DNA of 38,527 bases, from assembly GCF_019753045.1 (NCBI RefSeq), contig NZ_JAIELN010000018.1, forward strand, positions 1 through 38,527, in the 5' to 3' direction. Both the position numbers and the translations under genes were made by a program. Source of the DNA: Hyphomicrobium sp. GTDB lineage: Bacteria; Pseudomonadota; Alphaproteobacteria; Rhizobiales; Hyphomicrobiaceae. This document shows positions 17,744 to 36,985 of the stretch, one piece after another (the first letter of the stretch is position 1; every line of letters begins with the position of its first letter). Below the pieces are notes generated by a model, which did no database searches, was not told the DNA's origin, and worked only from the letters and a program-made list of their open reading frames with translations.

Positions 17744-17895
17744 CATTGGTGGGACGGTAGAGCCGGGGCTCTTTCGGTCCAATCGTTAATCATGTCGGCC
17801 GCTGGCATGTCGTTTGCTGGTCATTGGCGGTCCCCCTGGCTCCATTGGGTCGGGGAGGGCCGCTTTTTCATGACCAGATGCGGGCGGAGACAGAC

Positions 17896-21262: not shown

Positions 21263-21279
21263 TCCGAGGGCGAACAGAA

Positions 21280-22617
21280 ATGGTAACGATGAAAGGGGAA
21301 GTCGGCACCGCGGCACCGGTTGCAAGCGATCTTGCGCGGATCGTTCGTCCGTTCCTTGTGCTTGTCGTGCTGCTCGTCTACTGGATTTCATTCGAGCCGT
21401 TTCATGACCGCTCGGGCGCCGATCTCGCCGGGCCGCTCGAAGGCGGCAATATCGCCAATCAGATTGCCTTCCCGCTGCTGTTCATCGTGTTGGCGGCCTT
21501 TACGCTCGCGACGAAGCCTAACCACTTCCGCAACGTTGCCGCGTTTCCGTTCGTGGCATTCATGGTTTGGCTGCTGATCACGAATGTCGTCTCCGGCGAT
21601 CCCGCAACGGGTTTGAAGCGCGGGCTATTCGAGGTCATCTCGATGACGATTGCGGCAATGGCCGTGGGGTTGCCGCAGAGTCCGCGCCAGTTCGCAAATC
21701 AACTCGCGATCGCTGCTTTTGCCGTGCTCGTTCTTTGCTACGCGGGTGTTGCGTTCCTCCCGTCGCTTTCCATCCACTCGGCCGGCGATACATTGGAGAG
21801 AGAACTCGCCGGAAACTGGCGCGGCTTCTTCAATCACAAGAATGAAGCCGGGGCGATGATGGTCGTCCTCATCTTCTCGGGGCTGTTCATCGCCGAAATC
21901 GGCAAGCGGTGGGCCGGTTGGCTGATCGTCGGCGCAGCATCCGTGTTCCTGCTGTTGTCGGTTTCGAAGACGTCGATTGCGCTGGTGCCATTTACGCTCA
22001 TCCTAGCGGCGTTGGTCTACCGTGCGCGAAGCGGCTGGTTTCGCGCTGCCCTCGTTCTGCTGCCGCTTGTTTTCCTCAACATTGCGACGGTCGGGTCGAG
22101 CTGGCCGGGTCCAATCAGATCGCTGGTCGCCCTCGTACTTCCTGACGCCAGTTTCACGGGGAGAACGGATCTTTGGCGCTTCTCTCTAGAGCAAACAGCG
22201 GCGCATCCGATTTTCGGCTACGGCCTTGCGGGGCCATGGCGGACGAACGAGCTTATGTATCGGGATAAACTTCCGGCGGAGCCCGAGGATATCTCGGGCT
22301 GGGTCGAAGAACTTGGAACGGATTCTCACAACAGCTATCTCGAAGCGGCGCTTCAATTCGGCATTCCCGGTTTGGTATTGCTGCTGATCGCGGTGATCTA
22401 CGTTCCGCTGCGGGACTTCGGGGCCGCATCACGATTGTCGAACAATCCGGCCCTCGCGCGATATTTCCTGAGGCTGTGGATCTACGTCCTCTTCACGGCG
22501 TCGCTCGAGACCGTGCTCGTCTCGCGCAACAATCCGGTCTGGTTCATGGCTCTGATGGCGATTGTCGGGATGCATTTGCTCGCGCGTTTCCCCGTCGCCA
22601 ACGAGGATCGCCGCTGA
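21280..22617 (+). CDS. O-antigen ligase / Wzy-type polymerase family membrane protein
   Basis: A 445-residue polytopic membrane protein with about 10-12 helices. The large periplasmic loop contains TGRTDLWRFSLEQTAAHPIF and GTDSHNSYLEAALQFGIPG, the Wzy_C (O-antigen ligase/polymerase) signature with its conserved His. GNWRGFFNHKNEAGAMM is another family motif. In this locus it most likely polymerises lipid-linked repeat units at the periplasmic face. The ATG at 21280 follows GAGGG; a second ATG at 21289 is possible. It starts 17 bases after the GH5 stop, in the same operon as the co-polymerase. Confidence 0.9.
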   Translation: MVTMKGEVGTAAPVASDLARIVRPFLVLVVLLVYWISFEPFHDRSGADLAGPLEGGNIANQIAFPLLFIVLAAFTLATKPNHFRNVAAFPFVAFMVWLLITNVVSGDPATGLKRGLFEVISMTIAAMAVGLPQSPRQFANQLAIAAFAVLVLCYAGVAFLPSLSIHSAGDTLERELAGNWRGFFNHKNEAGAMMVVLIFSGLFIAEIGKRWAGWLIVGAASVFLLLSVSKTSIALVPFTLILAALVYRARSGWFRAALVLLPLVFLNIATVGSSWPGPIRSLVALVLPDASFTGRTDLWRFSLEQTAAHPIFGYGLAGPWRTNELMYRDKLPAEPEDISGWVEELGTDSHNSYLEAALQFGIPGLVLLLIAVIYVPLRDFGAASRLSNNPALARYFLRLWIYVLFTASLETVLVSRNNPVWFMALMAIVGMHLLARFPVANEDRR

Positions 22618-22626
22618 GTTTTCCGG

Positions 22627-23439
22627 TCAGGCGCGAACGCCTATTGTGTGCAAGGCTTGGTCGACCGACAGGCATGGAATTCCGCGGGCCATTGCCGCGT
22701 TCACAGCCATTTCGAGATGAGCAGGGGAGCAGCCGATCCAGCTCGGGTTTGGGGTCACGTCGTGGGTATAGAAGATGACCCATGCGTTCGTCGCGATCGC
22801 CTGGTCGAGAATTGCGTTGATCGACTGCTCGGTGCTCGTTCGATCATAGAGCTCGATCGACCGAAGCATCGCCAAATCGATGAGGCCGGAGTTCAAACCA
22901 CCGTAGATGCTTCGGCAGCTGCTGAATGTTTTGTCGAGGTCGAACTTGCGCGGGAACGAAACATTCCCAAACGGATAGGCGAAATTTTTGCTCGCAGCGT
23001 TTCCGCAAATGTCGCGGAGGGCATTGAAGCACTGTTGCGTTTCGCGCGCGAGGGCGGATCGGGTCAGGCTCTGCACTTTGACGTGGCTGTATGTGTGGCA
23101 ACCGATTTCGTGGCCTGCGCGGGCGAGCGCTTCGACATCGCGCTTATCGATGACGGTCCAATGCTCGTCCTCGGTCCCGCAGATGCCGGGCGCAATGTAG
23201 TAGGTTCCGCGTATGCCATAGCGATCAAGTATCCGCGCACCGTTCGTCCGAGCGGAATCCGGCGCATCGTCGAAGGTGAAGCTCACGATCGGATGGGTGT
23301 TCTTGGCGATGATCGGCTTCGTCGGTACGATACGCGCGAGATAGCGCGAGGCGCTTGCACAAAGTCCCGTAACGCGCTTCGGCGTTACGTCGGCGTGACT
23401 TCCTTGAACCATTCCGCTGACCCCGTTGATCCCCTCCAT
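22627..23439 (-). CDS. Polysaccharide deacetylase (CE4)
   Basis: A 270-residue NodB-fold protein. CE4 motifs in order: TFDDAP (motif 1, two Asp), IGCHTYSH (motif 2, metal His pair), FAYPFGN (motif 3) and VIFYTHDV (motif 5 His). It should remove N- or O-acetyl groups from a glycan. No signal peptide is evident, so it may act in the cytoplasm on lipid-linked units or be exported another way. The ATG at 23439 is 4 bases after the stop of the upstream glycosyltransferase gene, so the two are cotranscribed, and it is convergent with the polymerase gene. Confidence 0.9.
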   Translation of the reverse strand: MEGINGVSGMVQGSHADVTPKRVTGLCASASRYLARIVPTKPIIAKNTHPIVSFTFDDAPDSARTNGARILDRYGIRGTYYIAPGICGTEDEHWTVIDKRDVEALARAGHEIGCHTYSHVKVQSLTRSALARETQQCFNALRDICGNAASKNFAYPFGNVSFPRKFDLDKTFSSCRSIYGGLNSGLIDLAMLRSIELYDRTSTEQSINAILDQAIATNAWVIFYTHDVTPNPSWIGCSPAHLEMAVNAAMARGIPCLSVDQALHTIGVRA

Positions 23440-23443
23440 GGTG

Positions 23444-24646
23444 TCACCCGAGTTCCAGATTGGAGATAAGGTATGCCGCGGCTTGTCGCGTGGTATGCCG
23501 CTCGGCGGCGCGTCTCAGCGAAGCCCTATCGGTTGGCGTATTGAGCGCCAGCTCGATCGCGTTAGAGAGCGCTTTCTTGTCGCCGACGGGCACGAGGCCG
23601 CCGAGGCTGCCGCCTTCGAGAACTTCGCGAGGTCCGTAGGGGCAATCGGTTGAAACGACGGCGGTTCCGCAGGCGAGAGCTTCGATCAGCACGTTGCCGA
23701 GACCTTCGAACTTCGACGAGCTGACGAGCACCTCGGCTTTCAGAAGCCATTCGAATGGGTCGTTCGTTGCGCCCGCGAGCGTTACGCGATCTCCGAGTTC
23801 AAGGCGCGCGATTGTGTCTTCTAGGGCTGGCCGCATGGGGCCTTCGCCAATAATGACAAGGCGCGCGGGCGCGCGCTTCGCGAGATCGGCAAAAGCTCCG
23901 ATCAATGTCAGATGGTCTTTCTCTGGCGACAGGCGGCCGATGGCGACGAGCAAGCCTTTCTCGCGCGTTTCGGGAGTTCCCTTTCCAAGTGCTAACCGCG
24001 CAGCCGTCGGCGGATCGATGACAGCGTTCGATGTCATGACGCTGATCCGGTCAGCCGGTACGCCGAAATTCAAAATGAGGTCGCGGCGCGCGCCTTCTGT
24101 CAAGGTGAGGACGCGATCGGCTCGACTGTAGACGTATCCGGCCGCGCGGAAGGCGAGGCGGTTCTGAAGATATGGGTCGAGGCCTTTCGCAATCGAGGGT
24201 GCTGTCACTTCGCGCAAAACTAGGCGCGGGCGTGATCCCGGCGAGAGCAATCGGGTGGCGGCGTACGCCGCGACATTAGGGGCGGCCTCAGAACTGAAGA
24301 GAACAGTCGGCTGCAATCGGCTGATCGCGTTCCTGAGAAGGATGACTGCCGTTGCGAGCCGCTTTGCAGGGACGTGAACGATGCGGACGCCGTCAGCCAC
24401 GAACTGTCTCAGCCGGCCCTCGGGAACGAGAGTGAGAATGCTGACGTCAATGCCGGTTTCGAACAGGCTGTTCGCCAGCAGGATGGCGTCGCGCTGAGCG
24501 CCGCCGCCGTGGAGGGCGCGGATAAAGAATGCGACGTGCGGGCGGCAGGTCACGGCATTGACAGCAGAGGCGTCAAGCGGTCGGCCAACATCTCCTTCGA
24601 GGTTGGCATGGAAAGTGGATTTCTTGTTTGTCCCATGAAGCATCAT
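23444..24646 (-). CDS. GT4-family glycosyltransferase
   Basis: A 400-residue GT-B glycosyltransferase. The N-terminal domain starts VAFFIRALHGGGAQRDAI (glycine-rich acceptor loop); the C-terminal domain has LLVAIGRLSPEKDHLTLI, ARLVIIGEGPMRPALE and the donor EX7E motif FEGLGNVLIEALACGTAVV. It likely adds a hexose from a nucleotide sugar to the lipid-linked unit. The start is uncertain: ATG 24646 leaves room for divergent promoters against the flippase gene, whereas the longest frame begins at a TTG at 24739, only 31 bases from it. It is cotranscribed with the deacetylase. Confidence 0.88.
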   Translation of the reverse strand: MMLHGTNKKSTFHANLEGDVGRPLDASAVNAVTCRPHVAFFIRALHGGGAQRDAILLANSLFETGIDVSILTLVPEGRLRQFVADGVRIVHVPAKRLATAVILLRNAISRLQPTVLFSSEAAPNVAAYAATRLLSPGSRPRLVLREVTAPSIAKGLDPYLQNRLAFRAAGYVYSRADRVLTLTEGARRDLILNFGVPADRISVMTSNAVIDPPTAARLALGKGTPETREKGLLVAIGRLSPEKDHLTLIGAFADLAKRAPARLVIIGEGPMRPALEDTIARLELGDRVTLAGATNDPFEWLLKAEVLVSSSKFEGLGNVLIEALACGTAVVSTDCPYGPREVLEGGSLGGLVPVGDKKALSNAIELALNTPTDRASLRRAAERHTTRQAAAYLISNLELG

Positions 24647-24770
24647 GGGAGCGGTCCATGCCAAAAGCGTGCCTGAATCGACAACGAGCGGGCGCGATGC
24701 GTCGAAAATGAAAACGAGACGTGTCCCAAAATCGGGCAATTATTCAGTGGTGCAGTAAGGCTTTCCCGTA

Positions 24771-26204
24771 ATGATTTTGCGCCACACTGTGATCTATATC
24801 GGCTCGCGAGTGTTTGCCGCTGCACTCAACTTGCTTTCGGTCGCACTCTTCGCGCGTCTCGCAGGCCCTGAGACGTTCGGAGCTTATCTTCTCTATCTCG
24901 CCTCGGCGTACATCATCTACGGGTTCGCCATCCAATGGCTGCGGATGTCGTTTTTTGCCGTCTATACGGCGGACCATTCGCTTTCGATTGTCGGCACGTT
25001 CATTCGTACGATGTCTGTTTTCGTGGGACTGGTCGTCGTCGTAGCGGGCATAACTGTTTGGGCCGGTATCTTCAGCCGCGATGTGGTGGTTGGCACCGTC
25101 TTGCCGACGGTCGGCCTCGCGGTATTCGAGACGTTCTTTGAGATCGCACGTGCGCGTCTGAAGGTAGAGCTTGTTGGGGTCGCCGTGCTCCTTCGGGCGC
25201 TTTTCGTTCCGATCGCCGGGGCGGTTGCATTCGCGTTAACGGGAACTGCGACTGGCCTTGCAGCGGGCGTTGCGCTTGCTCACGTTTTGGCGGCGGCGCC
25301 GTTGATCCGCGAGGGTTGGCCGGCGGTCAGAGAGAAGTTTTCAGCCGGGATTGCGCGTCAATATTTGAAGTACGGCTCGCCGCTGATCCTGGCTTTCGGC
25401 ATCAACGCCGCCGGACAAAGCGGCGATCGATTGCTTCTCGCGAAGTTCGAAAGCGTCGGGGCGGTTGGTCCCTATGGGGCTGTCAGCGATCTCATCAAGC
25501 AAAGCCTTGTTGTGGTATCCGAGGCGGTCGCCGGATCTTACATGCCGCACGCCAAACGCGCCGCGAGCGATGGCGATAGTGCGCGAACGAGGCTTATTCT
25601 AACGGAGGCTTTCCGCGCATATTCGTTCATAACGGCCTTCGGGTCGGCGTTCATTTTGTGCTTTGCGCCCGACTTGATTCATGTGCTTTTCGGCGAGGCT
25701 TACGCGAAGGCGGCCGCGTCGTTGGTTCCGCTTTTTACGTTGGCAACGGCCCTTTACGTTTTTCGGGCGTTCTACTTCGGTCAGGCGATCTACTTCCTGG
25801 AGAGTTCATCGGCCGAACTCTACGTATCGACCGCGACTGTGCTTGCGGGAGCTGCAACTGCGCTTCTGCTCATTCCACCTTATGGTGCGGGCGGCGCGGC
25901 TTGGGCCATGCTGGCGGCTCAGGGTGCGGGTTGTCTCGTTGCTGCGCTCGCGGCGCGACGGTGGCAAGCCATGCCGCTTCCCATTCTCGATCTTTGCGGA
26001 ATAATCGGCATTGCAGCAGCATCGGCTTTTCTGGCTGATATTGCTGGTCTGCTGCCATTGGGACATGTGTTGATATTGGCGATTAAGCTCGTCGCGCTCG
26101 GCCTTGGGGCGTGCCTCGTGATCAAAGTGTACGATATCTTCGGTATCGGCGTGTGGATGCGGCAACTCACACGCCGCAAGTTGGCCGCTCCACGATTGGT
26201 CTAA
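24771..26204 (+). CDS. Wzx-type polysaccharide flippase
   Basis: A 477-residue integral membrane protein with about 12-14 helices. The start IYIGSRVFAAALNLLSVALFARLAGPETFGAY is the common N-terminus of the polysaccharide transporter (PST) branch of the MOP superfamily, and GINAAGQSGDRLLLAKFESVGAVGPYG begins the second half. It should flip undecaprenyl-linked repeat units across the inner membrane for the Wzy-type polymerase at 21280. The ATG at 24771 follows TAAGG. It is divergent from the GT4 gene at 23444 and convergent with the one at 26218. Confidence 0.9.
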   Translation: MILRHTVIYIGSRVFAAALNLLSVALFARLAGPETFGAYLLYLASAYIIYGFAIQWLRMSFFAVYTADHSLSIVGTFIRTMSVFVGLVVVVAGITVWAGIFSRDVVVGTVLPTVGLAVFETFFEIARARLKVELVGVAVLLRALFVPIAGAVAFALTGTATGLAAGVALAHVLAAAPLIREGWPAVREKFSAGIARQYLKYGSPLILAFGINAAGQSGDRLLLAKFESVGAVGPYGAVSDLIKQSLVVVSEAVAGSYMPHAKRAASDGDSARTRLILTEAFRAYSFITAFGSAFILCFAPDLIHVLFGEAYAKAAASLVPLFTLATALYVFRAFYFGQAIYFLESSSAELYVSTATVLAGAATALLLIPPYGAGGAAWAMLAAQGAGCLVAALAARRWQAMPLPILDLCGIIGIAAASAFLADIAGLLPLGHVLILAIKLVALGLGACLVIKVYDIFGIGVWMRQLTRRKLAAPRLV

Positions 26205-26217
26205 GAACTGCGCGGTG

Positions 26218-27396
26218 TTATTCGGCTGCGACGACCAGTTCATTATAGGCGGCGAGCATCCGGCCGCGTGAATATTTGGCCCGAATTGCCTGAGCGAACT
26301 TATCGAGATCGACGCTTGTTTGTGTGTGCGGGCGTTGGTCTGCGATCGCTTCGGCGAATGCCAGAGTGTCATCGGGGTGAACGAAGCTTACAGGTTCGCC
26401 TCCGCCGACGGAGAGGACTTCGCGCAAGACCGGAAGGTCAGCGGCAACGATCGCTACACCCGCCATGGCTGCTTCCACAGCTGCGAGCCCGAACGTTTCC
26501 CATTTGGACGGAAACACGAACACGTCGACGGCGCCGAGAAGATCTCCGAGCGCTTCCCGAGAGACAATTCCCAAGAAGTGGATTCGATCTGCAACTCCAA
26601 GTGAGCGTGCCAGGTCGCGAAGGTCGTTCTCGTTCGGTCCGCCACCCGCAAGGATAAGCCGGGCGTCAGTCACATGAGGCAGGGCGCGAATGATCTGATG
26701 CTGGCCCTTCTGATCGCAAAGTCTGCCGGCGTTCAGAAGCAGCAGGCCATCGTCCGGAACGGCATATCGCGGCAAGACTTCGGCGCGGGGGTGACGGGCT
26801 TTTGGTGCGTCAAGGCCGTGATCGATTCTGCGCAGGTTTCTGCGGTAACGCCGTGGATAGTGACGGAAGGCGTGCTCGGTTGCGGCGGAGTTCGCAATGT
26901 TGACGCTGTAGAGCCCTGCCGACCCCATGGCTGCATCAAGCAATCGTACTGCGGGGTGAATTTCGTCCGGCATCGCCGTTTGGTGCACGATGCGCCGTTT
27001 GCAGCCGACGAGGGCGCCAATGAACCCGACGATGACAGATGCCGTCGATTGATAGGCGATGAGCGTGTCGGGCCTTGTCCTCGCGATTTTTAGGATCGCG
27101 CCTGCAACGCCGCGCAGCTTCTGAGCGGTGGTGGCGCTGATGCCGGGGTAAATGAAGCGTGTCTCGACGCGGGCGCCGTTGTGCTGAAGGCCATCGGAGA
27201 TCATCTGGGCAAGCGCTTCGACGCCGCCGCCCTCATTGCTGTGAACCAATTGCAATACGGAGGTGCCGCTTCGGCCGAGATGTGCCGCGCCCTCGTCAGG
27301 CAAGGCCGCGCCGGCCGTCGCGAGGCGCGCGTTGGTTAACAAAGTCTTTCGCGATGCCTCAAACTGGAACTTGGCTTGCAACGTTGATGCTCCCAC
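26218..27396 (-). CDS. GT4-family glycosyltransferase
   Basis: A GT-B glycosyltransferase of about 390 residues. VLQLVHSNEGGGVEALAQMI is the N-terminal acceptor loop; LLLLNAGRLCDQKGQHQII, ARLILAGGGPNENDL and the EX7E motif WETFGLAAVEAAMAGVAIV form the donor domain. No ATG is in frame near the expected N-terminus. Candidates are GTG 27396, TTG 27381 (with GGGAG eight bases upstream) and TTG 27453; GTG 27396 is reported but the choice is uncertain. It is divergent from the FAD-enzyme gene and convergent with the flippase gene. Confidence 0.85.
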   Translation of the reverse strand: MGASTLQAKFQFEASRKTLLTNARLATAGAALPDEGAAHLGRSGTSVLQLVHSNEGGGVEALAQMISDGLQHNGARVETRFIYPGISATTAQKLRGVAGAILKIARTRPDTLIAYQSTASVIVGFIGALVGCKRRIVHQTAMPDEIHPAVRLLDAAMGSAGLYSVNIANSAATEHAFRHYPRRYRRNLRRIDHGLDAPKARHPRAEVLPRYAVPDDGLLLLNAGRLCDQKGQHQIIRALPHVTDARLILAGGGPNENDLRDLARSLGVADRIHFLGIVSREALGDLLGAVDVFVFPSKWETFGLAAVEAAMAGVAIVAADLPVLREVLSVGGGEPVSFVHPDDTLAFAEAIADQRPHTQTSVDLDKFAQAIRAKYSRGRMLAAYNELVVAAE

Positions 27397-27741
27397 TCTG
27401 GCCGGCAATTCTTTTCGGCTCGATTGGGCAGGCCGTTGCAAACCAGCAGCCAATTGGGGTGCGTTGGGCCGGGCTACTTCGTCGACTCTGGATCATTCGA
27501 GAGGGGGAGGTGCGCAGCCGCCACAGGCGAGGCCGCGAAAGCCAGTTGGCGCTATCTTTGCTTTGGGTAACGAGCCTTCGCGACACCCCATCGGAGCTTC
27601 GTGCAACCCCTCGTGACCTTCCAATCATCATCCGAATCCTCTCGGGAGGCCGGCCATATTGACCGGTTTTCGGAGTCCCGCGTTCCGATTTGGAACGGTG
27701 TTCAATATGAAACGACACCTCCAGACTTAGGGGACAGCTAA
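27397..27741. promoter_or_regulatory. Divergent intergenic region with two interleaved inverted repeats
   Basis: This region contains the start region of the leftward GT4 gene and the control region of the rightward FAD enzyme. Close to the latter are CGTTCC-N5-GGAACG (27681-27697) and an outer pair, CATATTGA (27655-27662) with TCAATATG (27702-27709). The GTG of the FAD gene follows 32 bases after the outer arm. They are candidate operators or a structured 5' UTR. Confidence 0.35.
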
Positions 27742-28947
27742 GTGCCGACGAACGAGATCGCGGCTGCGCAAGACCTTGCGAGCGGAGGCGAACATCCCGT
27801 CTCCGATGTCACGATCATCGGTGGGGGCGCCGCCGGTTCGATGGCTGCGATCGTGCTGGCACGGCGGGGAATTTCCGTCACGCTTGTCGACATGCGTGCC
27901 AAACATCCTCCGGAATTTCGCTGCGAGAAAATTGTCGACGACCAACTCGATCTCATCGAAGAACTTCAGCTTCTCGACTTCCTGAGGCCGGTATCGACGC
28001 GCGTGGACCAGATGCTGGTCGTGCGGTCCGGCAGCATTCAGGAGTTGCGTACAACGACCGAATACGGCTTCAACTATCAGGACTTCATCAATTCATTGCG
28101 GAGAGGCGTTCCCGGACGCGTGCGGTTCGTCAACGAGCGCGTTGTGAAGATCCGCAACGGCGAAGAGACACAGACCGTCGAACTCGCCAACGGCGAAACG
28201 CTGTCAACGCGTCTCGTCGTGTTGGCAACCGGGCTCTCGCAGGCGCTACGTCAAAACCTCGGAATGACGCTCGATACTGTCCATCATCACTCGCTCTGCG
28301 TCGGCTTTTCGCTCAGGCCGGGTGAAGGTCAAAAATTCAATTTTTCGGCGCTGACGTATTACAGCGAGCGTCTTGAAAGCGGCATCGCCTACATCACGCT
28401 GTTTCCGATGGGCGACGTGATGCGCGCCAATCTCTTCACCTACCACGGTCATCAGGATCCGTTTGTCGCCGCGATCAGAAACGATCCGGTTTCGGCGCTT
28501 TACGGCGCCATGCCCGGGCTCGAGAAATTTCTCAGATCGTTCGAGAGGACCGATGCGGTTCGGATCAGAATGATAGATCTCGATCGCGTGGCGAACCACC
28601 GGCAGCACGGCGTCGTCTTGATCGGCGATGCGTTTCAGACGTCATGTCCCGCGACCGGCACTGGATTGACCCGGTGCATGAATGATGTCGCGCGATTGTC
28701 GGAGCACATTGACGATTGGCTTGCGACGCCCGGCATGAGCCGGGGTAAACTTGCGTCATTCTACGACGATCCCCGGAAGACATCGGTCGATGAAAAGGCT
28801 GCCTATGCGGCGCATTATGCGCGCAGATTTGCGACCGACCGCAGCCTGAGCTGGGATCTCCGGCGGATCAAGACGGTTCTCAGATCTCGCTTCAACATCA
28901 TGGAAGCTTCCGTCGCTGAGCGATTGAGCCTGCTGTCGGCATCCTGA
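27742..28947 (+). CDS. FAD-dependent oxidoreductase / monooxygenase-like protein
   Basis: A 401-residue flavoprotein of the PHBH/geranylgeranyl-reductase fold. The N-terminal Rossmann motif is IIGGGAAGSMAA (GxGxxG at 27-32); VVLATGLS and the FAD-ribityl GDAFQTSCPATGTG follow. It keeps ERLESGIAY and YHHHSLCVGF-type strands of the substrate domain, but no substrate can be named; hydroxylation, halogenation or saturation of a lipid or sugar are options. The GTG start has GGGGA upstream. The position between a glycosyltransferase and an acyltransferase suggests modification of the polysaccharide or its lipid carrier. Confidence 0.85.
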   Translation: MPTNEIAAAQDLASGGEHPVSDVTIIGGGAAGSMAAIVLARRGISVTLVDMRAKHPPEFRCEKIVDDQLDLIEELQLLDFLRPVSTRVDQMLVVRSGSIQELRTTTEYGFNYQDFINSLRRGVPGRVRFVNERVVKIRNGEETQTVELANGETLSTRLVVLATGLSQALRQNLGMTLDTVHHHSLCVGFSLRPGEGQKFNFSALTYYSERLESGIAYITLFPMGDVMRANLFTYHGHQDPFVAAIRNDPVSALYGAMPGLEKFLRSFERTDAVRIRMIDLDRVANHRQHGVVLIGDAFQTSCPATGTGLTRCMNDVARLSEHIDDWLATPGMSRGKLASFYDDPRKTSVDEKAAYAAHYARRFATDRSLSWDLRRIKTVLRSRFNIMEASVAERLSLLSAS

Positions 28948-28969: not shown

Positions 28970-30109
28970 CTACGATGCGAGGCGCGGGAGCCTATCGGCA
29001 ATCGAGCGTGCGAGTGCCATCAGTTTGGGCTTCCGCGAAATGTAGGCGATAGCTTTTCTGCGTGCGATGAACGGCGTGCCGCGCAAACTCAGCGGGGTTG
29101 TCAATTCCGCCATAGGCACGGGCAAAACGCCAAATTCGTCCTTATATCGGTGAGCGCCCACCGACAGATCAAAGGTACGGCAGCCTTCGGCATGAAGCGT
29201 TTCGAGGGCCTGATGTATGATCATCTTGCCCAATCCGAGCGGCCGCCAAATAGGGTCTTGCGACTGGCTCATGCGTATTAGCGTGGTGTGATCGTTATTT
29301 TTGAGAGCAAAGAATGTCGCGACGATTTCGGCGTCGGCCGCGAGTACGAACATGACTGCGTGTCCAGTCACGAGGCCGCGCAAAAGCTGACGGCGATAGA
29401 ACTCTTGGTAGACCGGCTCATTGAACACATGCTTGGCGCCCCGGGCGGCCAAGCGCGAGGTTTGTTGTTCCTGGAGTACTTGGAGGGCTTTCACCGCCTC
29501 ATCGCTGTTCGTGATGCGCCGCAGCCGTCCTCCGTTTTCGTTGGCGAACTTGGTCGTGCGGCGGCGTAGTTCCCGGCGTGCAGATTTGCTGAGTGTCGAC
29601 AGGTATTCGTCCCAATTGTCGCCGAGCGATACGATATGGCCGCTCAGATCACTGCTTTCGATGCCGGAAAGCGTGGTCATGGGGTTCACATTCGAGCCGA
29701 GCGACACCGGCATCTTTTGCAGCGTCAGGACGTCCGCCGGCGGAAGCGCTCGCAGAATGGCCGGCCAAATCTCCCGGTCAAAGCCCTGAAAGTCATAGTC
29801 CGAGCGTGCGAGCGGTGCGTTGTAATCGGTAATCCATAAATCGGCGAATTCGATCCGTCTGATCCCGTTCTGAGAATGCCGCATGAGCGGGATCATCATG
29901 AGATCACGGCCGGAACTTCGCTCTACAACGCTGACGATGACAGGTTCGACGCCGGTTGGTGCGAAGGATTCGTACCAATTTCCGATCCAATGGGCCGTTT
30001 GAAAGGGCGATGCAAATGCGTGCCGCTCAAGCGCCTGCCAGCGATCGGAAACGGAACCCCATGTCGAAGCAATTTCGACCGAGACATTTGTATTGATGGA
30101 AGCAGTCAA
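28970..30109 (-). CDS. CelD/BcsL-type GNAT acyltransferase
   Basis: A 379-residue protein of the CelD/BcsL (FemAB-like double GNAT) family. FASPFQTAHWIGNWYESFAP is the conserved N-terminal element; RELRRRTTKFANENGGRLRR and FFALKNNDHTTLIRMSQSQ with PLGLGKMIIHQALETLHAEG belong to the C-terminal GNAT domain. Homologues occur in exopolysaccharide and cellulose loci, where they are presumed to acylate sugars or amino groups. The first usable start is TTG 30109 with no clear ribosome-binding site; no ATG or GTG is in frame upstream before a stop. It is convergent with the FAD-enzyme gene (22 bases). Confidence 0.85.
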   Translation of the reverse strand: MTASINTNVSVEIASTWGSVSDRWQALERHAFASPFQTAHWIGNWYESFAPTGVEPVIVSVVERSSGRDLMMIPLMRHSQNGIRRIEFADLWITDYNAPLARSDYDFQGFDREIWPAILRALPPADVLTLQKMPVSLGSNVNPMTTLSGIESSDLSGHIVSLGDNWDEYLSTLSKSARRELRRRTTKFANENGGRLRRITNSDEAVKALQVLQEQQTSRLAARGAKHVFNEPVYQEFYRRQLLRGLVTGHAVMFVLAADAEIVATFFALKNNDHTTLIRMSQSQDPIWRPLGLGKMIIHQALETLHAEGCRTFDLSVGAHRYKDEFGVLPVPMAELTTPLSLRGTPFIARRKAIAYISRKPKLMALARSIADRLPRLAS

Positions 30110-30696: not shown

Positions 30697-31186
30697 CAAA
30701 TTCCGCGTCTGAGCATTCGTCGTTGATCGAGTCGCGTTTCGTGAAAAGTAGCGCAGGCGGAATATTTGCGAAATGCGACGTTCGGGGATGTTTGAACGGC
30801 CGCTATCGATCACGGCAAATTAGACACGACAAATAGGACGGCCCGGTGGCGATCCATCGGCCGACGCGCGCAGAGGAGGTCTGCGAAGTTCGCGCGGCAC
30901 CTTATGGCGGTCAGCGGCATATCCGGAGTACCGGTCGCGGGCCCAAGCCACTGATTCTCATCAAAGAGATCTTATGCCCGGACACACAACCTTGGATCGG
31001 CGAATTCATACAGTTTCGAGATGCTCGGGCCGGTAACTCGGCTCGTTTGTGGTCTCGGCGCAATGCCGGGATCGAAAAAAGGTGGACGCCGTTCGATGCT
31101 GGGGGCCGAGCAACTAGCTTCCCGGAAATAGTTCCGATAAATTTCAGGAGCTCGGCGGGGGCGTGGGGCACGGGGGAAGTCGGAAC
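30697..31186. other. 490-base region without a recognised gene
   Basis: The region between the exported protein gene (leftward) and mlaA (rightward). Several short open frames are present but none has a good start signal or protein-like composition. A small inverted repeat, CGGAA-ATAG-TTCCG (31123-31136), lies 50 bases before the mlaA start. No terminator, tRNA or clear promoter was identified. It presumably holds both divergent promoters. Confidence 0.4.
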
Positions 31187-32179
31187 GTGAAGTTTCGTGC
31201 AATCTTCAATTTGACCGGCAGCATGATGGTCGCCGCAGGAATGTCCGCGTGCGCCGGTTCGCCGATGTCGCTGCCGCCTGCCCAATATCTCGCGTCTCCC
31301 GAAAAAGATGAAGAGCCGAAGGCGATTTCGGATCCGAACGAAGCCTTCAACCGCGCCGTCTTCGAGACCAATCAGAAATTCAATCATTCCATTCTCTATC
31401 CGGTCGCCAAAGCCTACAACGAGAACGTCCCTCAGGCGGTGCGCGATAGGGTCGACGCGTTCTCGACGAACCTTTCCGAACCGATGGTGTTCGCGAACAA
31501 CATTCTGCAGCTTCGTCCGAAGGCGGCGGCGACCACGCTTGGACGTTTCGCTTTGAATTCGACAATTGGTGTCGGCGGCCTGTTCGACGTTGCGGTGGCG
31601 CAAGGGCTCGACCACCAGTCAGGCGACTTCGGCCAGACCATGTTTGTCTGGGGTTATCGTGACAGCAGCTACTTGGTGCTGCCGATCGTCGGCCCGACAA
31701 ACGTCAGAGACGCTATGGGCAGCGGTATCGAGTTTGCGGCGCAGCTGGATTCGGGTGCACTTCTCCCTGCTTCGCTCATGTCGATGAAGAGCGTCGCGGA
31801 TTTCGTCGAGGACGTCCAACCCGTAACGAATGCCGTCGGCGTGGCGGGAAGTGTGTCGAGCCCCCTCACCAATCTCAGCAAAGCGCAGGATATGGAAACG
31901 CTCGAGGACAGTTCGCTCGACTTCTATACGATGCTCCGAAGCGTGACGGATCAGAAGCGTCAGGCAGAACTGCAGGAAGCATTGGATACGAGCGCTCTGA
32001 CGAGCACGCCGCCTCCGCCTGATCCCAATGCAATAGAGCCCGTGACCGTGCTCGTTTCATCGCCGACGATGCTGGAAGTCCGGCGAGTCGTCGATGCGTC
32101 CAAGCCCGCAAGTCCCGACACCGGGACAATGGTGATCATCGGGCCGCCGAAGCCGGCGGAAGCGCCGATTGCCCGGTGA
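31187..32179 (+). CDS. mlaA: MlaA/VacJ family outer-membrane lipoprotein
   Basis: A 330-residue lipoprotein. The GTG start (ribosome-binding GGGGAAG upstream) gives a signal peptide ending in the lipobox MSAC, with Cys22 lipidated. The mature domain shows MlaA hallmarks: DPNEAFNRAVFETNQKFN, RLGRFALNSTIGVGGLFDVA-type segment (residues about 115-140), HQSGDFGQTMFVWGY and YLVLPIVGPTNVRDA. MlaA removes misplaced phospholipid from the outer leaflet of the outer membrane and passes it to MlaC; the other Mla genes are not here. A 60-residue Pro-rich C-terminal extension (TPPPPDPNAIEPV) goes beyond E. coli MlaA. Confidence 0.92.
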   Translation: MKFRAIFNLTGSMMVAAGMSACAGSPMSLPPAQYLASPEKDEEPKAISDPNEAFNRAVFETNQKFNHSILYPVAKAYNENVPQAVRDRVDAFSTNLSEPMVFANNILQLRPKAAATTLGRFALNSTIGVGGLFDVAVAQGLDHQSGDFGQTMFVWGYRDSSYLVLPIVGPTNVRDAMGSGIEFAAQLDSGALLPASLMSMKSVADFVEDVQPVTNAVGVAGSVSSPLTNLSKAQDMETLEDSSLDFYTMLRSVTDQKRQAELQEALDTSALTSTPPPPDPNAIEPVTVLVSSPTMLEVRRVVDASKPASPDTGTMVIIGPPKPAEAPIAR

Positions 32180-32181
32180 TC

Positions 32182-32226
32182 GGAATCACAACACGTCATT
32201 CCCGTTGATGCATTCTCGTTGATGCA
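32182..32226 (+). promoter_or_regulatory. EcfG-like element and 10-base direct repeat upstream of the ATP-grasp operon
   Basis: GGAAT (32182-32186), 16 bases and CGTT (32203-32206) is one mismatch from the EcfG consensus. CGTTGATGCA occurs twice, at 32203-32212 and 32217-32226, so the repeats overlap the -10 and the expected start of transcription. The operon's first ATG is at 32395, implying a leader of about 180 bases if this promoter is used. Confidence 0.3.
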
Positions 32227-32394
32227 ATGGCGAATCGCGCCTGGCCGCGGGCGTTATTTGCCGCGCAGAGCCGCGCCGTCAGATTGGCACAAGGCCACGC
32301 ACAGAGATTGGACGCCAGGAATCGAGCTGCTTGCGCGACCGCTCCGGGCGTTCCCGCGCGAGGCCCGACATGAGCCTCCGTGGCAAGGTGCGAT

Positions 32395-33633
32395 ATGCTG
32401 AAAAGAGCAGCTGCTCAGGTCGACGACGTAAATGAGCAGTCGCTCATCATCGGCAAGGCGCCTCTGGTTCGTCATCTCTATGAAGGACGAGACATTACGC
32501 CGATCTGGAACGACCTGTTAGCGCGCGTCTCGGCCGATCCGAACGATGCCGCGGCGTTCCTCGATCTTTCGACGATTTTGTACACGTTGGGGCAGCCCGA
32601 CAAGGCGGTGCTGGCGCAGACTGCGGCGCTCGACATTCGCCGGTCTTTTCACATCCGGAATGGGCGAGGCACAGGGCCAAGAATTCTCGTTTTCGTGACG
32701 GCCGGCGACTTCATGGCGAACACGCCGATCGAGTTTCTTCTGGAGACCTCGGACGCGAACGTTCTGCTGCACTATGTCGATGCCGGAACGAGCGATCTCT
32801 CCGGCGTTCCCGATCATGATGTCGCGTTCGTCGCTATCGGCGAGTCTCCCGCCAATCGGCCTGTCCTTCAGAGGCTCGAACGGCTTCTGAGCGGGTGGGC
32901 AGGCCCTATCATGAACAATGCGCCTTTGCGGATCGTGGCGCTCACCCGGGATGGCGTCGCGGGAAGTTTCGTCGATGAGCCGTCGATCTTGGCGCCTACG
33001 ACGGTCGACGTTTCACGCGATACGCTCGAGAAAATTGCAGCGGGTCAGCTTCGGCTCGCCGGCATGGATTACCCGATCATCGTGCGGCCGGTCGGAACGC
33101 ACGCCGGCAAATCCATGGAAAAAATCACGAGCGAAGAAGAGCTCTGCCGCTATCTCGAAGCCCGATCGGAGGCTGAGTATTATATCGCGCCGTTCGTCGA
33201 CTACAGCGGGCCGGACGGCAAATTCCGGAAGCAGCGAATTGCATTCATCGACGGACGGGCATACGCGAGCCATCTCGCCGTATCCGATCATTGGATGGTG
33301 CACTACCTCAGTGCAGGCATGGCAAAATACGCGGATCGTCGCGCGGAAGAAGCGGCGTGGATGCGCGATTTCGACAGCGATTTCGCCGCTCGTCACGCGG
33401 TCGCGTTCGAAGCGCTGCATAAGCGGTTCGGCTTGGATTATTTCGCGATCGATTGCGCGGAACTTCCCGATGGACGGCTCCTGTTGTTCGAAGCCGACGT
33501 CGCCATGATCGTTCACTCGATGGATTCCGACGTTACGTTTCCCTACAAAAAGCTGGCGATGCGCAAATTGTTCGATGCGTTCGAAGATGCGCTGCAACGG
33601 CGTGTCCAACCCAAGATGATCAGCGCGGCATGA
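32395..33633 (+). CDS. ATP-grasp domain protein with TPR-like N-terminus
   Basis: A 412-residue soluble protein. Residues about 30-80 look like one or two TPR helices (WNDLLARVSADPNDAAAFL, TILYTLGQPDKAVLAQTAAL). The second half is an ATP-grasp fold: PIIVRPVGTHAGKSMEKI (nucleotide-binding strand and loop), YYIAPFVDYSGPDGKFRKQR, and the metal-binding end FAIDCAELPDGRLLLFEADV, where Glu-x-Asp replaces the usual Glu-x-Asn. Such enzymes ligate a carboxylate to an amine, thiol or peptide with ATP. The start at 32395 has AAGGTG upstream. It is the first gene of a three-gene operon with two PLP enzymes, 25 bases before the next. Confidence 0.75.
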   Translation: MLKRAAAQVDDVNEQSLIIGKAPLVRHLYEGRDITPIWNDLLARVSADPNDAAAFLDLSTILYTLGQPDKAVLAQTAALDIRRSFHIRNGRGTGPRILVFVTAGDFMANTPIEFLLETSDANVLLHYVDAGTSDLSGVPDHDVAFVAIGESPANRPVLQRLERLLSGWAGPIMNNAPLRIVALTRDGVAGSFVDEPSILAPTTVDVSRDTLEKIAAGQLRLAGMDYPIIVRPVGTHAGKSMEKITSEEELCRYLEARSEAEYYIAPFVDYSGPDGKFRKQRIAFIDGRAYASHLAVSDHWMVHYLSAGMAKYADRRAEEAAWMRDFDSDFAARHAVAFEALHKRFGLDYFAIDCAELPDGRLLLFEADVAMIVHSMDSDVTFPYKKLAMRKLFDAFEDALQRRVQPKMISAA

Positions 33634-33658
33634 GCGACATTCACTTTCGGAGATTTTG

Positions 33659-35203
33659 ATGGTCGCGAAGCTGCGCACTATTCCCAACGGGTTGACGGAC
33701 ACCGACTTAGATTCTGTTTCCTATGCCAACGCAGGGCAGCCGCTTTCCTCTGTCTCGCTGTTGCTCGGAAGCGGCGGCGACAGGCGTATCTGGTCTGACG
33801 CCGCGACAGGCCGCAACCGCTATGGGACGCTGACAAGACCTGCGGGGGAAGAAATCTCGTTCTCGTCGACGACGGCGAGCAACGTATCGGCGGAGGGTTA
33901 CGCTGCCGCCGACCGCGCACTGAAGCGTCTCGTCGGTACGAATGCGGTTACCCCAATTCCATACGACGAATGGTTCGACGACGTGCGGGACGGCGTTCGC
34001 CGGAGCCTCGCCGTGGCGGATGCCGAAGTCATTCTGGCGGCCTCGGGGACGGACGCGGAAATCCTTGCCCTCTGCCTCGTCGCAGGCCTCTCGGTGAGAC
34101 CGATCACCAACATCTTCATCGCCCCTGACGAGACCGGGAACGGTATTCCGCTTGCGGCGTCGGGCCGTCATTTTTCAGATCTGACCGCGCTTGGCCGCGC
34201 AGTCGATAGCGGCGAGCTTCTCGAGGGGTTTTCGGACAGCCGCATCGAGGTTCGAACCGTTCCGATCCGAGATGAAACGGGCCAGCAGCGCACGCGGGAG
34301 TCGGTCGATTACGCAGTCGCCGGGCTCGTCGAACAGGAATTGAGGCGCGGGCGCGATGTTCTTGTGCACGTGCTCGATACTTCGAAGACGGGCTTGGAAG
34401 GCGTATCGAGGGAAACGGCGCGCCAGCTTGCGGCCGCCGCGCCCGGCCGCGTGCGCATTCTCATCGATGCTTGCCAGCTGCGTTGCCCGCTCAGTCAGCT
34501 GCGGCAAGATCTGAACGACGGCTTCCTCGTCGCTGTGACGGGTTCGAAGCTCGCGGCGGGGCCGCCTTTTTCCGGCGCCCTGTTGATCCCGGCCTCAACC
34601 GTCGACGAGCTTGCTCGGTGCCGGAATATTCCAGCCGGTCTCGCAGAATATACGGCAGCGCAGGACTGGCCGGCGTCGCTTCGCCAACGGACCGACTTCG
34701 GTTTCAAGTCGGAAATGAATATCGGCCTCAGCTTGCGATGGGTGGCGGCGCTCGCAAACCTCGTGCCTTACGCAGCTGTCGATGAGATGCTGCGTGCTCA
34801 GATCAAGCAGCACTTCGTCGACGCCGTCCTTGTTCGAGCGACGGACCTGAAGGGTGTCCAGCTGCATCCCAACGACGAGGGCGCGTATCTGGCGTCGCGC
34901 GGCATCGTTCCGCTGACGGTCCTGGGCGGCAACGGAGGCTTTGCGTCCTTTGATCAAGCGCAGGCCGATCAGGTCGCGCTAAGAAGTGCTGCCGGTGGTC
35001 CGATTTGCCATATCGGGCAGGCCGTACGGATCGGCCCTCGAGTTGCGCTTCGCATTGGAGCGTCGGCGACCGACATAGCGGGGGTCGCGGCGCGTATGGC
35101 TGCCGGCGAGACGCTGCAGGACGCGTTCAAGCCAATTGAGGCTGATCTCGACACGGTCTTCGCGAAGTGGTCGGGAATCCGACGGCATCCCTTCGGCGCA
35201 TGA
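33659..35203 (+). CDS. PLP enzyme, fold type I, aminotransferase class V-like
   Basis: A 514-residue protein. The fold-type I core is recognisable: AASGTDAEILALCL (phosphate-binding), VLVHVLDTSKTGLEG, Asp270 in ILIDACQLRCP (pyridine N ligand, with Gln273) and the candidate Schiff-base Lys297 in VAVTGSKLAAGPPFSGALL. The layout resembles class V enzymes (cysteine desulphurase, kynureninase), but the N-terminal 130 residues and the C-terminal domain do not match one I can name, so the reaction is unknown. GGAGA precedes the ATG. The stop overlaps the next gene's start (ATGA). Confidence 0.75.
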   Translation: MVAKLRTIPNGLTDTDLDSVSYANAGQPLSSVSLLLGSGGDRRIWSDAATGRNRYGTLTRPAGEEISFSSTTASNVSAEGYAAADRALKRLVGTNAVTPIPYDEWFDDVRDGVRRSLAVADAEVILAASGTDAEILALCLVAGLSVRPITNIFIAPDETGNGIPLAASGRHFSDLTALGRAVDSGELLEGFSDSRIEVRTVPIRDETGQQRTRESVDYAVAGLVEQELRRGRDVLVHVLDTSKTGLEGVSRETARQLAAAAPGRVRILIDACQLRCPLSQLRQDLNDGFLVAVTGSKLAAGPPFSGALLIPASTVDELARCRNIPAGLAEYTAAQDWPASLRQRTDFGFKSEMNIGLSLRWVAALANLVPYAAVDEMLRAQIKQHFVDAVLVRATDLKGVQLHPNDEGAYLASRGIVPLTVLGGNGGFASFDQAQADQVALRSAAGGPICHIGQAVRIGPRVALRIGASATDIAGVAARMAAGETLQDAFKPIEADLDTVFAKWSGIRRHPFGA

Positions 35204-36654
35204 CGGGCCGAGACGGCGAGGTGTGGCCTGCTGATCGTTCGCGCGATCTTGATCCGACCGACTGGGCAGAATTTCGCCGGCTCGCTCACGCTGCGCTGGA
35301 CGATGTCATCACGCATGTTCAAACCATCCGAGAGAGAGCTGTCTGGCAACCGGTTCCTGATGAAACGCGCGATCGTTTCGCTCAGGCGCTGCCGGTTGGC
35401 CCGCGTGATCTGAGCGACGTCCTGGCCGACGTCAGAACGCAGGTGTTGCCGTTCGCCTCCGGCAATTTGCACCCGCGCTTCATGGGGTGGGCGCAGGGCG
35501 CCGGAACGCCGGTCGGCATGGTCGCGGACATGCTGGCTGCCGGTTTGAACATGAATTGTGGGGGCCGAGACCACATCGGCATCGAGGTTGAACGTCAGAT
35601 CGTTCGCTGGATGGCCGAGGCATTCGGGTATCCGGATGGCGCGAGCGGGTTGCTGCTCACGGGCTCGTCGATGGCGAATTTTCTGGCCGTCACCATCGCC
35701 AAGGTGAACGCGATTGGACGTGAGAGCCGAAAGACGGGCCTCAGATGCGGGGACGGTCAGCTCGTCGCTTACACGTCGGCGGAAGCTCACAGCTGCATAG
35801 CGCAGGCGATGCAACTTTCGGGCATCGGATCAGCGAATTTGCGGAAGATCGAGGTCGACGCCGCGGGGAGGCTGCGGCCTGAAGCTTTGAAGGCTTCCAT
35901 CACAGCCGATCGGGCTCGGGGATTTCTGCCGTTCCTGGTCGTTGCGACTGCCGGAACCGTGAACACGGGAGCGATTGATCCGCTGGCGGACATTGCCCGG
36001 GTCGCATCGGAAGAAAAGCTATGGTTTCACGTCGATGGCGCGATCGGAGCGCTATCGATCTTTGCGCCGCGGCTTCGTCATGTGTGTGCGGGGATCGAGA
36101 AGTCGGACTCAGTGGCGCTCGATTTTCATAAGTGGGGTCAGGTTCCCTACGAGGCTGGCTTCCTGCTTGTGAAAGACGGGAAGGCGCACAGCCAGGCCTT
36201 TGCCGAACCCGCTGCTTATCTTCAACGCGCGGAGAGGGGACTCGCGGCAGGCGAAACTTGGCCGTGCGATCTCGGTCCGGATCTCTCGCGAGGGTTCCGG
36301 GCTCTCAAGACGTGGATGACAATCGAAACCTTAGGAACGGCGCGGATTGGCGACGCCATCCTCCACACCTGCGAGCTAGCGACTTATCTGGCAGAGCAGG
36401 TGAAACAGAGTCCGATCTTCGAGCTGAAGGCTCCGGTCGCTCTCAACATCGTCTGCTTCGGCGTTAAAGGGGGAAGCAGCGAGGACAACCGCCAACTCGT
36501 GATGGATCTTCAGGAAGCGGGGACGGCCGCGCCTTCCTGGACGACGATCGCCGGCGAGGTCGTGATCCGGTGCGCGATATTCAATCACCGGACGACGCGC
36601 GCCGATATCGATCAGTTCATGGAAGCGATCAGTGGCTTGGCAAGGGAGGCGTAG
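35200..36654 (+). CDS. PLP-dependent amino-acid decarboxylase (group II)
   Basis: A 484-residue group II decarboxylase. Motifs: FASGNLHPRFMGWAQG, LLLTGSSMANFLAVTIAK, YTSAEAHSCIAQAMQLSGI (His stacking on PLP), VVATAGTVNTGAIDPLADI, WFHVDGAIGALSIF (Asp) and the PLP Lys311 in DFHKWGQVPYEAG. It removes the carboxyl group of an amino acid to give an amine; aromatic, glutamate, diaminobutyrate or aspartate substrates are all within the family. The ATG overlaps the stop of the previous gene, with no own ribosome-binding site, so translation is coupled. It ends the three-gene operon. Confidence 0.88.
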   Translation: MTGRDGEVWPADRSRDLDPTDWAEFRRLAHAALDDVITHVQTIRERAVWQPVPDETRDRFAQALPVGPRDLSDVLADVRTQVLPFASGNLHPRFMGWAQGAGTPVGMVADMLAAGLNMNCGGRDHIGIEVERQIVRWMAEAFGYPDGASGLLLTGSSMANFLAVTIAKVNAIGRESRKTGLRCGDGQLVAYTSAEAHSCIAQAMQLSGIGSANLRKIEVDAAGRLRPEALKASITADRARGFLPFLVVATAGTVNTGAIDPLADIARVASEEKLWFHVDGAIGALSIFAPRLRHVCAGIEKSDSVALDFHKWGQVPYEAGFLLVKDGKAHSQAFAEPAAYLQRAERGLAAGETWPCDLGPDLSRGFRALKTWMTIETLGTARIGDAILHTCELATYLAEQVKQSPIFELKAPVALNIVCFGVKGGSSEDNRQLVMDLQEAGTAAPSWTTIAGEVVIRCAIFNHRTTRADIDQFMEAISGLAREA

Positions 36655-36676
36655 GAGCCGTTGCTCCTAGCTCCTA
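36652..36676. repeat. Hairpin TAGGAGC-CGTT-GCTCCTA with tandem GCTCCTA
   Basis: The stop codon of the decarboxylase opens a 7-bp stem (36652-36658 with 36663-36669), and GCTCCTA repeats at once (36670-36676), ending on the convergent gene's stop. There is no T-tract, so termination is doubtful. Confidence 0.35.
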
Positions 36677-36985
36677 CCAGCGGCGAGGCTGCCGCCCTCT
36701 ACGGGCATCCCAGCGGGCGCGCGAATAGACCTCGACAGCGCCGTAAGGCCTGCGCCAATTCGGAAACAGGCCAAAGTAGGGAAGCGGATACGGCGACGCG
36801 TAGATGTAGCCGTTTTCCTCGTAAAGGTTGTTGTACGGCTGCGCGATGACGACCGGTGGAGGGAGAACCTCCTCAAAATAGGCATCATCAGGCGGCGGAT
36901 AGCTGCCACCGAAATCCGCGGCCGACGCGGATGATGCGTTGAAACCCACAGCCGCGAACGCAGCGAGCGCGATAAGCGTTTTCAT
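36674..36985 (-). CDS. Small exported Pro/Tyr-rich protein
   Basis: 103 residues. The signal peptide MKTLIALAAFAAVGFNASSASAA is followed by an acidic, Pro- and Tyr-rich segment (GGSYPPPDDAYFEEVLPPP, NLYEENGYIYASPYPLPYFG) and a basic Arg-rich end (RARWDARRGRQPRRW). The ATG at 36985 starts the signal peptide and has GGGGAAAA about 10 bases upstream; the longer frame to 37030 is rejected. It is periplasmic or envelope-associated by inference; function unknown. The 39-residue membrane peptide gene lies 28 bases upstream on the same strand, so the two may be cotranscribed. Confidence 0.75.
   Translation of the reverse strand: MKTLIALAAFAAVGFNASSASAADFGGSYPPPDDAYFEEVLPPPVVIAQPYNNLYEENGYIYASPYPLPYFGLFPNWRRPYGAVEVYSRARWDARRGRQPRRW

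Follow-up and report, generated by a model that had tools for sequence, protein, structure and literature searches.

A conserved three-gene unit encoding an ATP-grasp protein, a fold type I PLP enzyme and a group II decarboxylase in Hyphomicrobium and its possible role in making an amide-type metabolite

An ATP-grasp gene (ATPg), a PLP-enzyme gene (PLP) and a group II decarboxylase gene (DEC) form a real conserved unit in Hyphomicrobium and other bacteria. The three genes travel together, and in each predicted protein the residues that activity would require are conserved. The trio is kept together in many bacteria, with several gene orders and sometimes beside flagellum genes, and its products therefore probably make an amide-type molecule jointly. 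The fuller reading, in which the trio acts as a single module that builds a small amide- or dipeptide-like compound independently of non-ribosomal peptide synthetases (NRPSs), is in our judgement about evenly balanced between right and wrong.

The window, meaning the whole 38,527-nucleotide stretch of DNA that was analysed, is an entire contig of a 4.5 Mb Hyphomicrobium genome. Its three genes (Table 1) occupy positions 32395-36654 on one strand, with a 25-base gap between ATPg and PLP (33634-33658) followed by a four-base ATGA overlap between PLP and DEC (35200-35203), confirming the layout described in a first-pass annotation made from the sequence alone. An alternative PLP start, TTG at 33656, is likewise open. 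The mlaA gene lies upstream (31163-32179), and the open reading frame (ORF) downstream converges on the trio. A scan of 32100-36800 for sigma-70-like promoters found none, against 0.9 expected in shuffled sequences, and the inverted repeat at the end of DEC carries no T-run and is absent from the terminator scan output. Loci and genomes are designated below by L and G numbers.

Table 1. Features of the three-gene locus in the window
Feature	Description	Position	Strand	Basis
ATPg	ATP-grasp ligase with short TPR-like N-terminus, 412 aa, ATG start	32395-33633	+	ORF
PLP	Fold type I PLP enzyme, no named family, 514 aa	33659-35203	+	ORF, model
DEC	Group II PLP decarboxylase, 484 aa, ATG start	35200-36654	+	Pfam
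Inverted repeat	7 bp, 4-base loop, overlaps DEC stop codon	36652-36669	+	by eye

Recurrence of the trio carries the main finding. All three genes are present in 11 of 22 Hyphomicrobium genomes and none of them in the other 11, the same 11 carriers being found for each gene; in one carrier (G004) the ATPg is divergent and multi-TPR. Among 63 PLP neighbourhoods examined, which were chosen for the PLP gene through genus, order, phylum, contig and plasmid searches and are not a random sample, 44 hold a contiguous trio in one of four gene orders: ATPg-PLP-DEC (25), PLP-ATPg-DEC (11), DEC-ATPg-PLP (7) and PLP-DEC-ATPg (1). One PLP-ATPg-DEC locus (L116) has a glycosyltransferase-like gene inserted between PLP and ATPg. 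Carriers beyond Hyphomicrobium include Rhizobium, Mesorhizobium and distant Pseudomonadota. Such retention of content under shuffled order would be difficult to account for if the genes had no common function. When genome contigs were scanned with the PLP alignment, 20 loci emerged, and in all 20 the three genes stand side by side; eight are contigs already in the Hyphomicrobium set, and twelve come from Mesorhizobium, Rhizobium and isolates labelled 'Rhizobiales bacterium'.

Counts over wider samples are lower bounds, since scoring was confined to a few top candidates from each genome in the order-wide (397 genomes) and phylum-wide (398 genomes) sets. Across the order, PLP was found in at least 19 genomes, ATPg (E<1e-70) in at least 23 and both in at least 17, a co-occurrence with a Fisher p of 6e-23 that is uncorrected for species kinship. 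PLP occurs in at least 25 of the 398 phylum genomes and in 32/60 genomes of one genus (g53), which we take, as a guess, to be Bradyrhizobium. Mirror-tree correlations over 46 loci were 0.87-0.94, exceeded in 0/500 permutations, although shared ancestry would also yield such values; these loci were preselected as likely trios, so that 44/63 is the count to rely on and the 44/46 found there is not a frequency. The PLP and DEC trees recover the same main clades. The trees do not show recent horizontal spread: Hyphomicrobium needs a single change on the PLP tree and two on the DEC tree, and no well-supported branch forces a second origin. No fourth gene is conserved across all clades, the only recurrent neighbour being a glycosyltransferase-like gene in g53, and ORFs upstream of PLP in L103, L104 and L106 were dropped as resembling antisense shadow ORFs. 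The first-pass annotation had staked its idea on the trio recurring as a unit elsewhere and on close homologues having no assigned pathway already. The idea survived on both points, the trio recurring with shuffled orders as counted above; neither the annotated plasmid records examined nor the literature search results contained a relative with an assigned pathway, and no publication among those results names the trio.

The PLP protein has no match in Pfam up to E 0.1, Aminotran_5 (PF00266) included, or in NCBIfam, and PDB sequences gave nothing with E below 0.1. Its structural model is of moderate confidence (pLDDT 70, pTM 0.75), and a Foldseek search with it returned fold type I proteins, namely class V enzymes, group II decarboxylases, serine palmitoyltransferase and others. 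K297 and D270, the putative Schiff-base lysine and the aspartate predicted to face the pyridine nitrogen, are invariant in 37/37 aligned relatives and, with the Foldseek result, identify the protein as fold type I, in agreement with the earlier naming of a fold type I enzyme with Lys297. The wider signature comprises D41-x-R43, N53-x-Y55, S129-G-T131, G160-x-G162, S242-K243, D270-x-x-Q273-x-R275, S296-K297, P302-x-F304 and R360. Within it, D-x-x-Q and S-K-x3-GPP look class V-like by what we take to be the motifs of that family. On these motifs and the moderate model, the enzyme looks like a class V-like protein of fold type I; the earlier remark that it fits no nameable class holds for family models, but the motifs look class V-like and the Foldseek list has class V among others.

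DEC is identified as a group II decarboxylase by Pyridoxal_deC (PF00282) with an E-value of 7.2e-61 and 206 bits against a cut-off of 27. H310 and K311 of its active site are kept in 44/44 relatives, bearing out the group II decarboxylase with Lys311 of the first reading. A family signature, G-G-R-(D/N)-(H/Q), places G121-G122-R123 near the expected substrate loop. In pairwise alignment DOPA and tyrosine decarboxylases have aromatic residues in this segment, and R123 is invariant in 44/44 relatives. An invariant arginine where DOPA decarboxylase is aromatic may point to a substrate that is polar or acidic, and the amino acid decarboxylated is, to judge from sequence, perhaps of this kind.

The window ATPg protein has no Pfam or NCBIfam match above curated cut-offs; its sub-threshold matches are CofF (16.9 bits against an equivalog cut-off of 300), CPSase and LysX. 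The model of a relative (L026) was matched by Foldseek best to LysX/ArgX and further to D-Ala-D-Ala ligases (Ddl) and synapsin. Putative Mg/ATP residues are conserved among relatives in an R/K-rich G-T-H-A-G loop, D-x-C-A and F-E-A-(D/N). The relative's fold and the conserved D, E and D/N place the family in the ATP-grasp superfamily, so the earlier ATP-grasp call stands through the LysX/Ddl-like fold of the relative, the window protein itself lying below family cut-offs. The TPR-like N-terminus claimed with it is partly upheld: the N-terminus is helical in the relative's model and another relative (L020) has many TPRs, while the window protein itself gives only sub-threshold Pfam TPR matches (TPR_12, E 0.012).

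Chemically, the decarboxylase would take CO2 off an amino acid to give an amine, the ATP-grasp enzyme would activate a carboxylate as an acyl phosphate and join it to the amine as an amide, and the PLP enzyme would make or alter an unusual amino acid that feeds the pathway. Decarboxylation could alternatively come after ligation. The decarboxylate-then-ligate scheme of the first-pass annotation is still the best reading, its individual steps remaining inferred. As half of the Hyphomicrobium species have none of the three genes, the product would be an accessory metabolite and not an essential cofactor. In one clade it may have a connection with the flagellum. The first-pass annotation suggested an intracellular product; in that clade the genes lie in a cluster of flagellar hook genes.

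Sets that are incomplete, split or substituted bear on this pathway. The 19 of 63 PLP neighbourhoods without a contiguous trio consist of 15 with PLP only, two with PLP and DEC (L101, L102), one with PLP and ATPg (L111), and L065, which has DEC-PLP plus only a distant ATP-grasp gene on the opposite strand. Where the trio-type ATPg is absent, another ATP-grasp gene can accompany PLP: a PF14397 ATP-grasp gene adjoins PLP in L064, and a tandem ATP-grasp/acylphosphatase gene, with a homologue in L101, adjoins DEC in L102. These substitutions are counted in favour of a shared pathway. A trio-type decarboxylase gene lies about 1.1 Mb away in G269, the genome of L064, and on another contig in G312. 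ATPg without PLP was found in six of the 397 order genomes, among the best few candidates scored per genome; DEC adjoins it in G087, G247 and G300, G137 has none, and G071 and G146 have only distant decarboxylases. Distant PLP members lie directly 3' of NRPS genes on rhizobial plasmids and on one G438 replicon, which indicates that the chemistry of the PLP enzyme does not depend on this ligase. A role of the PLP enzyme as an NRPS off-loader was rejected, as the three NRPS genes scanned all end in a thioesterase domain. On a Neorhizobium plasmid, a PLP gene (product 51% identical) sits beside genes annotated dmpA and dat, with no ATPg or DEC partners.

One rival explanation assigns to the module the synthesis of a building block for flagellar decoration (a glycan of the hook or filament); copies outside flagellar clusters would serve other surface polymers. 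It draws on the g53 loci, where the trio follows flgE, flgK and flgL (identified by Pfam/NCBIfam in L072). A neighbouring gene that we read as glycosyltransferase-like, itself without a Pfam match, stands beside the trio in all 11 contiguous-trio loci of this genus, and flgK lies within the fetched stretch in nine of the 11, the other two ending at a contig edge. Even where PLP is missing the association persists: ATPg-DEC is kept beside flgE/K/L in two g53 genomes (L120, L121), ATPg and DEC face each other beside flgE/K/L in another family (L119), and ATPg alone adjoins a FliI-like ATPase gene in L118. In the window an exopolysaccharide cluster is found about 3.4 kb away, with the trio on its 3' side, but this MlaA/exopolysaccharide neighbourhood is common to only 6/11 Hyphomicrobium loci, some of these incomplete. 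Outside the flagellar clade, no flgE/K/L relatives were detected within the 14-19 kb fetched around the trio in Hyphomicrobium, Mesorhizobium, Rhizobium and distant Pseudomonadota. We regard this explanation as unlikely; the position in a flagellar gene cluster may be a lead to such decoration in one clade.

It is improbable that the ATP-grasp enzyme modifies a protein or carrier, as RimK and LysX do, with DEC and the PLP enzyme supplying an amine or acting on a carrier-bound residue in the manner of BtrJ/BtrK in butirosin synthesis. The best fold match, LysX/ArgX, acts on an amino-group carrier protein, and the TPR-like N-terminus could bind a protein. Seven relatives (L018, L026, L028, L030, L031, L039, L079) also carry an extra C-terminal domain of about 150 aa on ATPg, in which the six sequences that were aligned all keep Q, C, H and D, a pattern recalling the C39/papain-like active site; L077 and L078, of genus g79, have ATPg without it. 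The domain has no Pfam or PDB sequence match and is mostly modelled with pLDDT <50, so that C39/papain-like is a candidate type. No carrier protein gene was noticed directly beside the trio when the neighbourhoods were looked over.

Handling of phosphoserine- or phosphonate-like amino acids by the pathway is a distinctly improbable reading. It is prompted by L065, where DEC and PLP are followed by genes for a DAO-type oxidoreductase and a phosphonoacetaldehyde hydrolase, by a Paraburkholderia FT54 plasmid on which ATPg overlaps a gene annotated serC, and by a ParB-N-domain gene 3' of PLP in rhizobial NRPS loci. ParB-N domains include serine kinases, and the invariant R123 of DEC would suit this reading as well. 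Each of the genomic links, however, occurs in one lineage only, and in the two further genomes of the L065 genus the contigs end too close by to show whether the arrangement recurs.

Bacterial synthesis of methanofuran or methylofuran, with an MfnA-like tyrosine decarboxylase, an MfnC-like transaminase and an MfnD-like tyramine-glutamate ligase, is very improbable as the role of the trio. According to PMC8141765, MfnA is a PLP decarboxylase, MfnC a PLP transaminase and MfnD an ATP-grasp tyramine-glutamate ligase, three enzyme types that match the trio exactly; the same source describes a tyramine-type methylofuran in Hyphomicrobium zavarzinii, where homologues of MfnA and MfnD were not found. 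Against this match, MfnB (PF04476, 4-HFC-P synthase) is present in 19/19 Hyphomicrobium genomes tested, 11 of which carry the trio and 8 of which lack it, and in 0/24 PLP-positive genomes outside Hyphomicrobium, 20 of which hold a contiguous trio. The decarboxylase reaches 81.6 bits against the MfnA cut-off of 299.4, and the contig scan, pattern-based and thus able to miss cases, matched H. facile but not H. zavarzinii. Because the trio does not track MfnB, the methylofuran route was rejected as its general function and is largely refuted; a special role within Hyphomicrobium stays conceivable. The link to methylotrophs or to a general cofactor raised by the first-pass annotation is not supported, given the same MfnB pattern and the 11/22 Hyphomicrobium genomes without the trio, the latter also being the ground for rejecting a methylotrophy trait. 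Anti-phage defence was dismissed, PADLOC returning nothing for ATPg and PLP and, for DEC, only weak cross-matches to the PLP proteins SspA/DndA.

The preferred reading remains a joint pathway to a small amide. A broader version of it holds that the trio represents an undescribed, widespread proteobacterial pathway built round a new PLP family and leading to an amide metabolite whose ends differ by lineage, flagellar decoration being one and the PLP enzyme alone supplying NRPSs with an unusual amino acid another; we consider this version doubtful. Cultured Hyphomicrobium, Mesorhizobium and Rhizobium carry the trio, making gene deletion with metabolite comparison feasible. Its all-or-none presence among close species provides a natural experiment, and the flagellar and NRPS linkages offer two independent routes to the chemistry.

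DEC is homologous over its full length to Ruminococcus gnavus tryptophan decarboxylase (4obu, E 2e-63), but scores 176.2 bits against the cut-off of 900 of the RhbB equivalog model (NF052646, L-2,4-diaminobutyrate decarboxylase) and bears its own substrate-loop signature. The PLP enzyme shares fold type I, D-x-x-Q and S-K-x3-GPP with class V aminotransferase-like enzymes, yet matches neither Aminotran_5 nor, at E below 0.1, any PDB sequence. LysX/ArgX and D-Ala-D-Ala ligases, the best Foldseek matches of the ATP-grasp relative, are 13-17% identical to it, and the window protein reaches 13.4 bits against the LysX equivalog cut-off of 275.6.

Small pathways combining an ATP-grasp enzyme with a PLP enzyme are already known as a kind; in the present set the PLP enzyme belongs to a family without a Pfam or NCBIfam model. 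The closest in enzyme types, MfnA/MfnC/MfnD as given in PMC8141765, differs in that the trio is not tracked by MfnB and DEC falls far under the MfnA cut-off. Glutathionylspermidine synthetase/amidase differs in domain order, and no ATP-grasp protein scanned here has a Pfam match to that synthetase; the likeness is that it couples a carboxylate with an amine through an ATP-grasp ligase to which a papain-like domain is fused. BtrJ and BtrK work in butirosin synthesis, where BtrK, whose PLP fold is a different one, has a carrier protein as its target, in contrast to the trio, beside which no such protein was seen. With BtrH, they nevertheless present an ATP-grasp enzyme, a PLP decarboxylase and a C39/papain-like acyl transferase, the last comparable to the extra domain of the ATP-grasp relatives.

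An exopolysaccharide-type gene cluster lies in the window near the trio of ATP-grasp, PLP-enzyme and group II decarboxylase genes, and two further genes stand a short way upstream of the trio. The HfsF-like protein of this cluster scored 57 bits against a cut-off of 700. In six Hyphomicrobium loci, this cluster occurs near the trio, either whole or in part.

Features near the trio in the window (coordinates of NZ_JAIELN010000018.1)
Feature	Coordinates	Description
Exopolysaccharide-type cluster	17824-28947	Wzz-like, GH5 cellulase, Wzy/O-antigen ligase, polysaccharide deacetylase
Exopolysaccharide-type cluster, further members	17824-28947	two GT4 glycosyltransferases, HfsF-like protein, UbiH-like FAD enzyme
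FemAB/CelD-like GNAT protein	28970-30109	just upstream of trio
MlaA lipoprotein	31163-32179	just upstream of trio

Relatives of the trio genes elsewhere have diverse neighbours. At locus L065 (6826-11786), the decarboxylase and PLP genes are followed by genes for a DAO-type oxidoreductase and phosphonoacetaldehyde hydrolase, all in the same direction. On a Paraburkholderia plasmid (L126, 8941-11306) a gene annotated serC overlaps the ATP-grasp relative. At locus L123 (8079-9860), another ATP-grasp relative has a TPR-sulfotransferase gene next to it, with neither the PLP enzyme nor a trio-type decarboxylase nearby.

PLP relatives at L100, L101 and L102 lie in longer frames of 734-840 aa, in which the PLP part begins between residues 185 and 323. 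The additional sequence at the N-terminus, scanned in L100 and L101, gave no Pfam match and may partly be a start-codon artefact.

At four loci (L081, L082, L083 and L113), a distant PLP-family member comes right after an NRPS gene, with an overlap or a gap of a few bases, and genes for ParB-N-domain and SagB-like proteins and phosphopantetheinyl transferase occur downstream in some of these. On a Neorhizobium plasmid (L080, 6831-10413), the neighbours of the PLP relative carry the annotations dmpA (D-aminopeptidase) and dat (D-alanine aminotransferase), and genes for peptide ABC transporters lie close by.
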